Of a DNA stretch of 64,000 nt, positions 44,659 to 49,738 are shown in pieces. The DNA is taken from assembly GCA_025359135.1 (NCBI GenBank), contig JANYHJ010000168.1, positions 62,001 through 126,000 on the forward strand, in the 5' to 3' direction. A program made the translations under genes and the position numbers. Below the pieces are notes generated by a model, which worked only from the letters and a program-made list of their open reading frames with translations, did not search any database and was not told the DNA's origin. The DNA comes from Gemmatimonadota bacterium (lineage in GTDB: Bacteria; Gemmatimonadota; Gemmatimonadetes; Gemmatimonadales; Gemmatimonadaceae). Position 1 is the first letter of the stretch. Each line of letters opens with the position of its first letter.

Positions 44659-46845
44659 TTAGCGAGGGCGCTCGGTGGCGTCCGCTGCGGCCGCCTCGCT
44701 CAGGCGCCGGCTGACCTCGTCGCGCAGCGACGCGAGGTCGGTGAAACGGCCGGTGGCGTTGGCGCCCATCTGCTGGCGGTTGGCGAGCAGCACGACGACG
44801 AGCTGCTGGGAGGGCACGCCGAGGACGTACGTGCCCGTGAAGCCGGTGTGCATGAACGCGCCGTCGGGCAGTCCGCTCGGACGCATGAAGCCGAGGTAGT
44901 GACCGAACGGCTCCGGGGTGAGGAACTCGCGGATCGTCTCGGCGCGCAGTATCCGCCGGCCGCGCGAGACGCCGTTGTCGAGCAGAAGCTCGAGCAGCAC
45001 GCTCAGGTCGGCGGCCGTGGAAAAGAGTCCCGCGTGACCGGCCACGCCGCCGTGGGCGTAGAAGGCGTTGCCATCGTTGGCCTCGCCGCTCAGCACGCGC
45101 GTCCGCCAGCCGGTCCACGCTGCGGGATGACCATGATACGGAAAGGCGAACGTCGTGTCGTACACCATGCGATGCTCATAGCCGTTGCCAACTTCGGTGG
45201 CCGCGAAATCACCGTGGAGCCGGTCGGGCGTGAAGCCAGTGTTCGCGAGACCGAGCGGTCCATAGACGACGCGCGCCGCGTACTTGTCGAGCGACTCGCC
45301 GCTCACGCGTTCGACGATGTAGCCGAGCAGCATGAAGCCCAGGTCGGAATAGTGACGCGCTTCGCCGACGCCCGATGCGAGCGGCAGGCGCGTGATCGCG
45401 GCAAGCGCCTCGCGCCGGTCGGAGGCGCTGTAGTAGAGCGGCTGCCACGGCGTGAGCCCCGACGCGTGTCGTAGCAGGTGGCGCACGGTGATGCTGTCGA
45501 GGTGCGTTCCGCGAAACTCGCCGAGGTAGCGGTACACGGGAGCGTCAAGGTCGACGGCGCCGCGATCGACGAGCGTCATGATGGCGAGCGCGGTCGCCAT
45601 GACCTTCGTGACCGACGCGAGATCGAAGCGCGTATCGACGTGCATCGTGCGCGGATGCGCGAGTGGAGCGCCGTTCGAGTCGAGGCGTTGGGCGTCGCCA
45701 TACGCCGCGAGATGGAGCAGGCGTCCGTGCTGCGCGACGAGCAGCACGGCGCCGGCCGTGGTCTTCCCGGTGGCAGCGCGCACGAGCGAGTCGGCGTGTG
45801 CGATGGCGGCGCGCATGGCCTGACCTGACGCCGCGAGCGGCGCAGGTGGGGCCGCGGGTGGTCCCTTGCAGCGACCGTTCCCCTCGTCGACCGGCTTTAC
45901 GGTGGCCGCGTCCACGAATTGCCATGCGTAGCTCCCCGTGTCGAGCGTCAACCGCAACACGCCGAAGACGTTGTCACGGTGCGTCGCGCTGTTCGACCTG
46001 ATGGCGCCGAACCGCCGCAGGTTGCGACCGCCCGTGCCGACCACGAAGCTCGTGATGCCCGAGGTCGGGTCGCGGGCTCCATCGGCGCGCATGGGCTCGA
46101 AGCGTTCATAGTCGTGGTCGTGTCCCGCCAGCACGAGGTCGGCGCGCGCCTCCTGAAGCGCGGCCCAGATCGCCGTCAGTTCGCGGGAGTCACCATGCCC
46201 GCCGGAGCTGAAGCGCGCGTGGTGCCAGTAGGCGAGCAGGCATTGGCGGGGATGCTGCGCGAGGTCGGTGCGCAGCCAGCGCTCCTGCGCGCTTCCCTGC
46301 CCGCATCCGCCCACGTCGGCGCAGTTGCTGTTGATGGCCACGAGGTGCCAGGCACCGACATCGAAACTGTAGTAGCCGCGCGCTCGGGGACCCGCGATTC
46401 CGGTCGCGCTGTCGACGCCATTGAAGTAGTCGAAGTAGCCGCGCGCCCGCGCGGTGGCGTACTCGTGATTGCCCGGCACCGGCCGCGTGATCTTCCGGAA
46501 CTTGCCGAACGACGGATCGAACTGTGTGCGGAAGTTTTCGAGCGCACCCGACTCGTACTGCAGGTCGCCGAGCAGCAGGAGCGCATCGGGCGCCAGCGAT
46601 TCGACGACGCGGGCCACGTCGTCATGCCGGCACTCCCATGCCGCGTCGAGTGGCGCCGAGCAGACGAGGTCGCCCACTGCGGCGACGACGGGCGCGCGTC
46701 CCTGGGCCACCGCGATCGGTGGCGGGATCGTTTCGACCGGTGTGCTCTCCGGCGGCGGCGAGCCGGAAGGGGCGCACGCAGCCACGACCCACACGCCGAC
46801 GAAAGCCGTGAAGTGTGCCCGCACCGCGAATCGACGGGACATCAT
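44659..46845 (-). CDS. Lipoprotein fusing a metallophosphoesterase and a beta-lactamase-fold hydrolase
   Basis: A 728-residue lipoprotein (start ATG 46845; lipobox VVAAC, Cys24) with two enzyme domains. Residues about 48-320 are a calcineurin-type phosphoesterase: GDLVC, LLGDLQYESG, VPGNHEYATA, AYWHHARFSSGGHG and LAGHDHDYERFEPM. Residues about 350-710 are a class C beta-lactamase/DD-peptidase-fold hydrolase, with S411-V-T-K414, Y499-S-D501 and H666-T-G668 in the expected order. Neither active site looks damaged. Beta-lactamase-fold proteins of this kind are often esterases or D-aminopeptidases rather than resistance enzymes. The pairing is unusual; substrates are unknown. Confidence 0.86.
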   Translation of the reverse strand: MMSRRFAVRAHFTAFVGVWVVAACAPSGSPPPESTPVETIPPPIAVAQGRAPVVAAVGDLVCSAPLDAAWECRHDDVARVVESLAPDALLLLGDLQYESGALENFRTQFDPSFGKFRKITRPVPGNHEYATARARGYFDYFNGVDSATGIAGPRARGYYSFDVGAWHLVAINSNCADVGGCGQGSAQERWLRTDLAQHPRQCLLAYWHHARFSSGGHGDSRELTAIWAALQEARADLVLAGHDHDYERFEPMRADGARDPTSGITSFVVGTGGRNLRRFGAIRSNSATHRDNVFGVLRLTLDTGSYAWQFVDAATVKPVDEGNGRCKGPPAAPPAPLAASGQAMRAAIAHADSLVRAATGKTTAGAVLLVAQHGRLLHLAAYGDAQRLDSNGAPLAHPRTMHVDTRFDLASVTKVMATALAIMTLVDRGAVDLDAPVYRYLGEFRGTHLDSITVRHLLRHASGLTPWQPLYYSASDRREALAAITRLPLASGVGEARHYSDLGFMLLGYIVERVSGESLDKYAARVVYGPLGLANTGFTPDRLHGDFAATEVGNGYEHRMVYDTTFAFPYHGHPAAWTGWRTRVLSGEANDGNAFYAHGGVAGHAGLFSTAADLSVLLELLLDNGVSRGRRILRAETIREFLTPEPFGHYLGFMRPSGLPDGAFMHTGFTGTYVLGVPSQQLVVVLLANRQQMGANATGRFTDLASLRDEVSRRLSEAAAADATERPR

Positions 46846-46900
46846 GGCGGAATGATGCGGCGCGCGTGGCGGCTCGGCGAGGGGCCGCGCGTGCGTCTTG

Positions 46901-48112
46901 CTACGACCCGGCGCCGATGCGCGCCCATTCGCGCCGCGCGCGCTGCACGCAATCCTCGATCGCGAGGCCATCGAAGTAGTTGCCGACGACCGCGAGCGGC
47001 CGGCCGACAATCGCTGCGTCGAGTTGCGCGACGAGTCGCTCGTGGCCGACCACGGGCGACGGCAGCACCACGCGCCGCTCGGCCACGTCGCGCAGCTCAT
47101 CGCGCGGAACGCCGAGCACGACCGCCATGCGCGCGAGCCGGAGCTCGCGATCCAGCCCGGGAGCGAAGTGGAAGGTGAAGGCGCGATATCGCTCATCGGG
47201 CACGGAGTCGCGCGTCACCACCGCGTGCAGCCCATCGCCAAGCGGTACCGCGAACATCGTGACTGGCCAGCGCACTCGTGCGAGCGGCAGCACGACGGCC
47301 ATCGAGTCAACCGCCGCTTCCTCGATGCGTGCGAGCGTGCGAGCGGCGTCGGGGGCAGCGCCCTGCAGCAGGATCGCGGCGGCCGACGGGTTGGTCGCGA
47401 TCGCGAGTCGTGCGGCGCTGATCGAGTCACCGTTCGCGAGACTGACGCTGAACCCGCGCTGCGCGTCATGCTGCACGCCGGTCGCGCGCACCCCCGTGAT
47501 CACGTCGAGTCCCGGCTCCGACGCGAGCAGCTCCGCGGCCACCTGCAATCCACCGTCAAGCGTGAAGCTGCGCGGCAGGTCGGTGCGCCGGCCATCGCGC
47601 GACTTGAAGAGCATGCTCGCGGGAAAGTCGTCGGCGGACTGCGATGGCACGGCGGAGAGCATCGGTCCGAGCGTGTCACGATAGTTGCGCGGCCCGACGA
47701 TGGCCGAATAGTACTCGCGCACCGAGTGACCGGCCTTCTCGGCGCCGATCATGCGCGGCGCGTGCAGCGCGAGCTCGAGCCAGTTGAACCGCCGCATGAG
47801 CGCGCCCATGTTCGCGCCGGGCGCCATCCGGTCCTGTTCGAGAAAGCGCAGCTTGGTGGGCACGCGCTGCACGAGCGACTTCGCGAGTCCACGCCCTTCG
47901 AGCAGCGCGATCAAGCCGGTGTACGAGTTGTAACAGGTGTGCGCGCCGAGCTCATACCAGTAGCCTTCCGCGGTTCGTCGCGACGCGAGGCACCCTCCGA
48001 CGTGCGGCTCGGCCTCCACCACGAGCGTGCGCTGTCCTGACCGGGCGCTCGCTGCTGCGATGCTCAGGCCGCTGATGCCGCCGCCGAGCACGAGGGTGTC
48101 AACCGATCGCAT
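46901..48112 (-). CDS. FAD-dependent oxidase resembling protoporphyrinogen oxidase
   Basis: A 403-residue FAD-binding amine-oxidase-fold protein. The N-terminal dinucleotide motif is LVLGGGISGLSIAAA, followed by LVVEAEPHVGGCLASRRTAEGYWYELGAHTCYN. The C-terminal end NYFDGLAIEDCVQRAR matches the FAD-binding end of HemY-type protoporphyrinogen oxidases (a GNY/F-x-G-V/L block). It is shorter and more divergent than typical HemY, so it may be a related flavoenzyme. No other heme gene is nearby. It starts one base after the FHA gene stop and ends 55 bases before the phosphoesterase fusion gene. Confidence 0.65.
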   Translation of the reverse strand: MRSVDTLVLGGGISGLSIAAASARSGQRTLVVEAEPHVGGCLASRRTAEGYWYELGAHTCYNSYTGLIALLEGRGLAKSLVQRVPTKLRFLEQDRMAPGANMGALMRRFNWLELALHAPRMIGAEKAGHSVREYYSAIVGPRNYRDTLGPMLSAVPSQSADDFPASMLFKSRDGRRTDLPRSFTLDGGLQVAAELLASEPGLDVITGVRATGVQHDAQRGFSVSLANGDSISAARLAIATNPSAAAILLQGAAPDAARTLARIEEAAVDSMAVVLPLARVRWPVTMFAVPLGDGLHAVVTRDSVPDERYRAFTFHFAPGLDRELRLARMAVVLGVPRDELRDVAERRVVLPSPVVGHERLVAQLDAAIVGRPLAVVGNYFDGLAIEDCVQRARREWARIGAGS

Positions 48113-49738
48113 TCAGATCCCGAGTTCTTTTCGCACGTCGTCGGGGAGCAGCTTGCGCGCGGGCTTGAGCGGCACGCCCACGTATCCCTTGGTCCCCTTG
48201 CCTGCATGGATGGCCACGAGTTCACCGGCGGCCGTGAAGACCGCGCTGCCGCTCGCGCCGATGGTGGTCGTGGCATCGTAGCTGACCTGCTCGGGCGTGA
48301 TCGCGCCGAAGAGCCCCGCCGCAATCACGGGGCGCGCCGCCGTGCCGGCAGCGAGACTCACGGGCATGCCGATGACCGCGGCGCCACTTCCGTCCACGAG
48401 CGAGGCGCCCTTCCAGTCGATCTTCCTCACGAAGGGACCGGTGTAGTCGTCGACCTGGATGAGACCGACGTCCGCGCCACCGGCATCGGCAACCGCGACT
48501 TCGGCTGCCCAGAGCGACTTCTTGGTGCCGCCGAGCGAGACCTCGATGCTGTCAGGTTCGCTGTCGCCGTCGCGCAGCACGGCGCGCGTGGTGATCATGA
48601 TGCCGCTTGCACTCACGACCACGCCCGAAGCGCTGCGGGCCTTCGTGCCGAACCAGCTGGTGACGACGCCGATCGCGGGACCGTTGGCCTGGGCGAGCTG
48701 TCCCAGGTTGGCACCGGCGGCCTTGATCTTCGCGTCGAGCTGCGACGCTTCGCTCGCCTGTGCCTGCACGACGTCAAGCCGTTTCTGGAGGCTGTCGCGC
48801 TCGCGCGTGACGAGCGTGCCCTTGCCGCTGGCGGACTTGGCGAGGGCCGACTTGAGCCGATCGATCTCGGTCTGTGCGGCCTTGCGCGCGCTGTCGGCGG
48901 CCTGCTGCTGGAGCGCGACGGCCTTCTCCGCGCGCTGCAGCGAGCTCTCGAGTTCCGCGGAGCGCTCGTTGGCGGTGGTGAGGGCGCGCGTCAGGCTGTC
49001 GACGAGGCCCGCGTTTCCACCGGCCGATTCTGCAGCGGCGAGGCGCCCGCGCAGCCGATCGGCTTCGGCAGTGACGAGCACGCGGAGCGAATCGTTGACC
49101 TTCGCCTGGCGCGCGACGTCCGCCTCGCGTCCGGCGAGTGCGCGTTCCTGGTTGGCCGCCTGCATGCGGCTGTACGCCACCGCGCCGCCCACGATGGCCA
49201 CGACCAGCGCACCGGTCGCGGTGAGCGTGGAGCGCAGGCGGGTCGACGATTTCACCTTCTCGTCCTTGAGCGCCTTCTCGAAGGCGAGGGTGCGCATGCC
49301 AGGGCCGGCGTCGCCCGCAGTCGGTGACGGCGCGAGCGGCGTGGGAGCGGCGACGAGCGCGGGCCGGGTTGGTGGCGCGGGTCGCGGCACCGCGCTCTCG
49401 ATCATCGTGGCGGCGACGATCTTGGGCGACGTGGCCACGACACGGAACTGCGGCCCGCTCTCACCCAACTGCATGACCGCGCCGGTGACCACGGCAGTGC
49501 GGGCGTTCGGTGCGAGACGCGCGCCGTTCAGCCAGGTGCCGTTCCGGCTCCCCAGGTCAGTGAGCGCCCAGGCCGTGCCATCATGTTCGAGAATCGCGTG
49601 GCTCGCGGACACCACCGCTGCTCCGTCGCCCGTGATGACCAGCTCGAATTCAGGGTCGCGGCCGATGCGGACCGGCGTCGCGGAATACTCGTGGCGTTGT
49701 CCCGAGCGGGGTTCGGCGAGTACGAGATACGCGGGCAT
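48113..49738 (-). CDS. FHA domain - transmembrane - coiled coil - trypsin-fold protein with lost catalytic histidine
   Basis: A 541-residue membrane protein. Residues 1-105 form an FHA phosphothreonine-binding domain (RIGR 24-27, VSASH 43-47, LGSRNGTWLNG 62-72). A proline-rich linker follows, then one transmembrane segment (174-190), a coiled coil (about 191-345) and an HtrA/trypsin-like domain (about 350-525). In the protease fold the aspartate (D423 in GADVGL) and serine (S496 in GASGSA) positions are kept. The residue expected to be the catalytic histidine reads alanine 386 (GIMITTRAVLRDG). It thus looks like a non-catalytic protease fold across the membrane from a phosphopeptide reader. 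It is translated into the flavoprotein gene with no gap. Confidence 0.85.
   Translation of the reverse strand: MPAYLVLAEPRSGQRHEYSATPVRIGRDPEFELVITGDGAAVVSASHAILEHDGTAWALTDLGSRNGTWLNGARLAPNARTAVVTGAVMQLGESGPQFRVVATSPKIVAATMIESAVPRPAPPTRPALVAAPTPLAPSPTAGDAGPGMRTLAFEKALKDEKVKSSTRLRSTLTATGALVVAIVGGAVAYSRMQAANQERALAGREADVARQAKVNDSLRVLVTAEADRLRGRLAAAESAGGNAGLVDSLTRALTTANERSAELESSLQRAEKAVALQQQAADSARKAAQTEIDRLKSALAKSASGKGTLVTRERDSLQKRLDVVQAQASEASQLDAKIKAAGANLGQLAQANGPAIGVVTSWFGTKARSASGVVVSASGIMITTRAVLRDGDSEPDSIEVSLGGTKKSLWAAEVAVADAGGADVGLIQVDDYTGPFVRKIDWKGASLVDGSGAAVIGMPVSLAAGTAARPVIAAGLFGAITPEQVSYDATTTIGASGSAVFTAAGELVAIHAGKGTKGYVGVPLKPARKLLPDDVRKELGI

Follow-up and report, generated by a model that had tools for sequence, protein, structure and literature searches.

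What does a membrane protein do when it carries an FHA domain, the reader of phosphothreonine, at one end and, at the other, a serine protease fold whose catalytic histidine has become an alanine? This question is raised by a gene of the window, that is, the whole stretch of 64,000 nucleotides analyzed here, which belongs to a Gemmatimonadota draft genome of 4.13 Mb in 243 contigs (G000). The gene opens with ATG and closes with TGA, and its features, together with the adjoining flavoprotein gene, are collected in Table 1.

Table 1. Coordinates of the pseudoprotease gene, its parts and its downstream neighbor; positions are those of the window.
Feature	Position	Strand	Basis
FHA-TM-helical stalk-pseudoprotease gene	48113..49738	-	541 aa + stop; ORF and translation, Pfam, AlphaFold2 model
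FHA domain, residues 1-105	49424..49738	-	Pfam; invariant columns; R27, S44, H47, N66, G67 retained
Membrane segment, residues 170-188	49175..49231	-	Hydropathy; N-terminus probably inside, from secreted relatives sharing this protease domain
Long helical stalk, residues 190-342	48713..49171	-	AlphaFold2 helices; coiled-coil pairing putative
Trypsin/HtrA-fold domain, residues 343-541	48116..48712	-	Pfam; Foldseek HtrA1
Ala386 codon GCC at catalytic histidine position	48581..48583	-	CAC in ortholog; His in 128/130 homologs
Asp423, catalytic Asp position retained	48470..48472	-	Invariant column
Ser496, nucleophile position retained (GASGS)	48251..48253	-	Alignment columns
His511, at S1-pocket His213 position of glutamyl endopeptidases	48206..48208	-	Alignment; role from PMC5508998; putative placement
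Thr491, at pocket residue Thr/Ser190 position	48266..48268	-	Alignment; PMC5508998; putative
Flavoprotein gene	46901..48112	-	Start directly after the stop of the pseudoprotease gene

The architecture given in the preliminary description holds up, as Pfam, hydropathy, AlphaFold2 and Foldseek together give an FHA domain that a single membrane segment and a long helical stalk connect to a trypsin/HtrA-like domain. Pfam places FHA (PF00498) at residues 23-92 (E 9.5e-13; 48.8 bits against a cut-off of 20.7) and Trypsin_2 (PF13365) at residues 370-510 (E 6.6e-11; 43.6 bits against a cut-off of 27.6), and hydropathy marks a single hydrophobic segment. The AlphaFold2 model has a mean pLDDT of 81.7, with values of about 90-98 for the FHA domain and for the greater part of the protease domain, and contains helices at 153-238, 243-304 and 311-355. 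Its protease part is the more trustworthy one, because the input alignment had its long rows out of place across the FHA region, whereas fragments of FHA1 (the first of two FHA domains in the relatives described below) and the protease region were placed correctly. The phosphothreonine-binding residues (GR, S..H and NG) are present, and G26, R27, S44, H47, N66 and G67 are invariant in an alignment of 19 sequences, which supports an FHA domain that looks competent for binding.

When the protease domain was compared with the PDB using Foldseek, the HtrA1 protease domain was matched with an E-value of 2.8e-12 and a target TM of 0.78. HtrA/Deg proteases (HhoA, HtrA1, DegP), the best structural matches, share with it the fold and the Asp and Ser positions, but the window protein differs from them in having an FHA domain at the N-terminus, His rather than Asn at position 511, and neither a catalytic His nor a PDZ domain. 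In HtrA/Deg proteins in the strict sense, one or more PDZ domains come after the protease domain; here, Pfam gives no PDZ match and the protease domain is the end of the protein. PDB sequence matches of the domain also include staphylococcal exfoliative toxins, with weak E-values; these reflect general fold and pocket similarity and say nothing about toxicity.

Ala386, Asp423 and Ser496 occupy the catalytic His, Asp and Ser columns of the alignment, in a register anchored by the HtrA-type HhoA: its TNAHVV pairs with the TNRHVV, and its GNSG with the GSSG, of an intact relative. Thus, Asp423 and Ser496 do sit at catalytic positions and the histidine position does read Ala386 (TTRAVL), as initially proposed, and the His-Asp-Ser triad of active S1 proteases is incomplete. 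The oxyanion segment is intact in the alignment. As for another histidine that could fill the triad, there is none: the protein contains four, of which H16, H47 and H52 belong to the FHA domain and only H511 to the protease domain. Position 511 is His in 41 compared sequences, all of which, except the window protein and one relative (L064), also carry the normal catalytic histidine; His511 as a replacement is therefore ruled out. Judged from the sequence, His511 is a substrate-pocket residue, so nothing appears to substitute for the lost histidine.

Together with Thr491, His511 falls on the S1-pocket places of glutamyl endopeptidases, an assignment made by alignment only. In one such enzyme, replacement of the His213-type residue lowered kcat by more than 600-fold and raised KM about fivefold (PMC5508998). 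The putative likeness to glutamyl endopeptidases of the V8 type concerns two pocket positions, Thr/Ser190 and His213; unlike them, the window protein has no catalytic His, is membrane-anchored and is linked to an FHA domain. The domain may thus be described as one from which the general base is absent and in which the predicted S1-pocket residues are retained.

How widespread and how old is this loss? Relatives were found with an eight-row alignment of intact relatives, a single-protein scan of the named genomes having given none. Among 130 distinct homologous protease domains from Gemmatimonadota, the catalytic histidine is present in 128, namely, 124 in the alignment and four (L017, L019, L027 and L029) as TNRHV in a piece that was aligned on its own; it is missing from just two, the window protein (Ala) and L064 (Ser). 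The preliminary description had held that homologs with the normal motif would point to a local misalignment. Such homologs are indeed the rule, but the ortholog from the same genus (L008, genome G001), which is 52% identical, reads TTRHAVRDG where the window protein reads TTRAVLRDG, with equal length and equal flanks. This gapless alignment (SASG..TTR...RDG..EPDSI) rules out misalignment, and the loss is real.

In the tree, the window protein and this ortholog are sisters with support of 100/100. A single ancestral loss common to the window protein and the secreted His-to-Ser relative L064 was rejected: the tree has two changes, and forcing the two together gave a p-AU of 0.004, a value to be read knowing that the pair was chosen after the tree was seen. 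Two independent losses are needed because this grouping is rejected. The loss is therefore specific to the lineage of the window species and no family trait, with the Ala386 allele known from one draft genome only. The idea that Ala386 is a fixed trait of a family of signalling pseudoproteases must accordingly be given up, as the relatives look intact and many of them adjoin kinase genes.

Other departures from the canonical triad were seen among the homologs. L064 and L071 carry GSGGSP in place of the GSSGSP of others, so that in each the nucleophile position is Gly. The loci L078:5615-6622 (+) and L079:4719-5747 (+) encode two secreted-looking relatives without FHA domain or membrane segment, both with Gly as the nucleophile-position residue and one also with His replaced by Ser; from their sequences, these two appear to be a separate inactive branch. 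In addition, 12 FHA-trypsin homologs (L023, L024, L026, L030, L031, L032, L035, L074, L178, L185, L187 and L194) with intact His and Ser show Glu where the catalytic Asp is expected, and the residue before it is acidic or polar, in most cases Asp. This may be either an Asp-to-Glu replacement or a shifted loop.

The homologs split into two deep clades, and the window protein belongs to clade II. The typical clade II form is FHA-FHA-TM-stalk-protease, with His at position 511 and an ELG[IL] ending, and the window protein has full-length matches in it at 33-36% identity. The FHA domain of the window protein scores 102 bits against FHA1 of L041 and 57 bits against FHA2, which makes it the ortholog of FHA1; therefore, FHA2 was probably lost in this genus. 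By sequence descent, then, the protease domain, FHA1, membrane segment and stalk are to be regarded as shared with the clade II family of Gemmatimonadota, as seen in L090 from bacterium HR33 and in the ortholog L008, and the likeness extends to the S1-pocket residues and the ELG[IL] end. These relatives differ in keeping the catalytic His and, outside the genus, in having a second FHA domain and mostly a kinase neighbor, which the window protein is without. Topology may be read from L078 and L079: there, a signal-peptide-like N-terminus and another kind of N-terminal region stand before this protease domain, in place of FHA and membrane segment. Such relatives speak for a protease domain outside the cytoplasm, and thus for an FHA domain inside it.

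Of the named clade II loci, 27 extend far enough upstream to show what precedes the gene, and 19 of them have a divergent Ser/Thr kinase gene there; one such kinase, checked by Pfam, gave an E-value of 4.7e-62. The double-FHA membrane proteases of these loci, in the series L088-L118 (e.g., L090:2140-3048 on the minus strand and L088:3210-4868 on the minus strand), often adjoin two such genes. The double-FHA form is probably a kinase-linked extracytoplasmic protease with a glutamyl-endopeptidase-like pocket, and it is possible that protease and kinase constitute a signalling pair; a literature search found no paper describing such a pair. This trait is absent from the window's contig, which gave no kinase match. 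The window genome as a whole has 38 Pkinase matches above the cut-off, 6 FHA and 6 PP2C, and so many kinases may share few readers. Near the ortholog in G001, the opposite strand carries a PP2C gene about 3.7 kb downstream.

The window genome holds another copy (L076 / L003, contig C3), which belongs to clade I and is an intact FHA-TM-trypsin protein (TNRHAV, Asp, GSSGS). It directly follows a PP2C phosphatase gene, a neighbor that recurs in both other genus members, and a partial kinase match stands at the start of its contig.

The flavoprotein gene next to the pseudoprotease gene was once considered to be translated together with it. Coupling is possible, since the TGA is immediately followed by the flavoprotein ATG, but the other genus members do not share this linkage: G001, the genome with the ortholog, gave no flavoprotein match, and in G002, the third genus member, the flavoprotein lies near the start of another contig that has no FHA-protease match, with other DNA before it. 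It therefore offers no clue to function and was rejected as a functional partner; it is probably a neighbor rather than part of the system. In the same region, a single 845-aa frame (window 44659-47196, minus strand) matches both a calcineurin-like phosphoesterase domain and a serine beta-lactamase family domain.

The main rival explanation is that the protease domain is decaying under relaxed constraint. According to this, the domain became unneeded once one FHA domain and the kinase neighbor were gone from the genus, the loss of histidine was an early step, and what remains is at most an FHA membrane anchor. The missing FHA2 and kinase neighbor agree with such a course, and so do the length of the branch that leads to the genus pair (1.01) and the end branch of the window protein, which is longer than that of its ortholog (0.63 versus 0.25). 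Furthermore, among protease columns conserved in outgroups, 19 are lost only in the window protein and 10 only in the ortholog; no conserved FHA column is lost in the window protein alone. However, the frame is full-length and Asp, Ser and the pocket residues are retained. The coding pattern is also intact, with differences from the ortholog in the protease domain of 0.29/0.24/0.47 at codon positions 1/2/3, and amino-acid identity to the ortholog is as high there (0.55) as in the FHA domain (0.50); NG86 dN/dS values were near saturation and were given no weight. The protease domain, therefore, behaves as protein-coding sequence, yet it has changed faster than its sister. Because part of this divergence predates the loss of histidine, these figures decide neither for a new function nor for relaxation. 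We regard decay as rather unlikely, though less so than the other rivals.

HtrA-type proteases act as oligomers, and a dead copy could assemble or compete with the active clade I FHA-protease of contig C3, tuning it in a dominant-negative manner. The genome does carry that one intact copy next to a PP2C gene, and a dominant-negative role has been proposed for inactive peptidases of other bacterial systems (PMC7159879), but the two proteins are only 25-28% identical and come from deep separate clades, which makes mixed assemblies doubtful and the whole proposal improbable. Still less probable is residual cleavage, in which water, a group of the substrate or another base stands in for histidine. 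Such chemistry could draw on Asp423, Ser496 and the intact oxyanion segment, but the sole histidine of the domain is the pocket residue H511, shared with relatives that have the normal catalytic one. Finally, an error of sequencing or assembly at Ala386 is the least probable of all: although a single draft genome stands behind the allele, converting CAC GCG GTG into GCC GTG CTG takes, in a space of nine bases, five substitutions or else a matched pair of 3-base indels, and the change is in frame with a normal coding pattern around it.

We thus favor, with a probability of about one half, the reading that this single-pass membrane protein derives from an FHA-bearing, often kinase-linked protease that lost catalysis, and that it now binds a peptide or partner without cleaving it, tied to phosphorylation inside the cell. 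The ancestor would have been an extracytoplasmic serine protease of Gemmatimonadota, whose activity was presumably lost in the lineage of the window species. Inside, the FHA domain may dock on a phosphothreonine made by one of the many Hanks-type kinases; the long helix would keep the outer domain at a distance from the membrane and probably bundle copies. Outside, a trypsin-fold domain with a putative Glu/Gln-type S1 pocket and an oxyanion segment, but without general base, would most likely bind peptides or a partner protein and not cut them. The result would be an adaptor or sensor, and the ligand or partner sensor of the preliminary description is a reasonable conjecture.

The non-cleaving adaptor is favored because the histidine was replaced and has no candidate substitute, because the HtrA1-like fold is confident and the FHA-binding and pocket residues are kept, because the substitution pattern is that of coding sequence with protease identity no lower than that of the FHA domain, and because of the kinase and PP2C matches in the genome and the kinase-adjoining loci of relatives. 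The observed elements among these are the domain order, the histidine loss in one lineage, the retained residues, and the intact relatives with their kinase neighbors. It is weakened by the excess of lost protease columns and the long end branch, which relaxed constraint fits too, by the lack of a kinase match on the window's contig, and by the single draft genome. A more specific version, to which we give a lower probability, is that the family turned, at least in the window lineage, into a phosphorylation-coupled receptor, in which a dead V8-like domain would capture, beyond the inner membrane, peptides that are acidic or end in Glu, linked to phosphothreonine docking inside, with the secreted branch losing catalysis independently.

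Part of this picture is already known. A survey of 2008 lists the FHA-FHA-trypsin architecture, for NP_811686.1 of Bacteroides thetaiotaomicron (Tripathi and Sowdhamini, PMC2605481), and classes 42 of 966 serine proteases from five families as putatively inactive homologues. Likened by architecture, NP_811686.1 has FHA domains N-terminal to a trypsin-family domain, an order identical to that of clade II, whereas the window protein has a single FHA domain and no catalytic His. Inactive trypsin domains have also been proposed as peptide binders or dominant-negative regulators in other bacterial systems; as in the window protein, the fold is kept and catalytic residues are lost (PMC2605481, PMC7159879), but those of conflict systems are effectors of vWA-MoxR systems (PMC7159879). 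The window protein is a variant of these known themes. A full-text literature search combining FHA domain, serine protease and Gemmatimonadetes matched only a paper on the lipocone superfamily.

With a phosphothreonine reader inside and a protease fold outside in one chain, kinases could control, or be informed by, extracytoplasmic peptides. The pair from one genus with and without the histidine, together with intact kinase-adjoining relatives, offers a clean natural comparison of the passage from a regulated protease to a binding protein. The wider and apparently uncharacterised family of kinase-linked FHA-FHA-TM-proteases probably matters more than its lone dead member.
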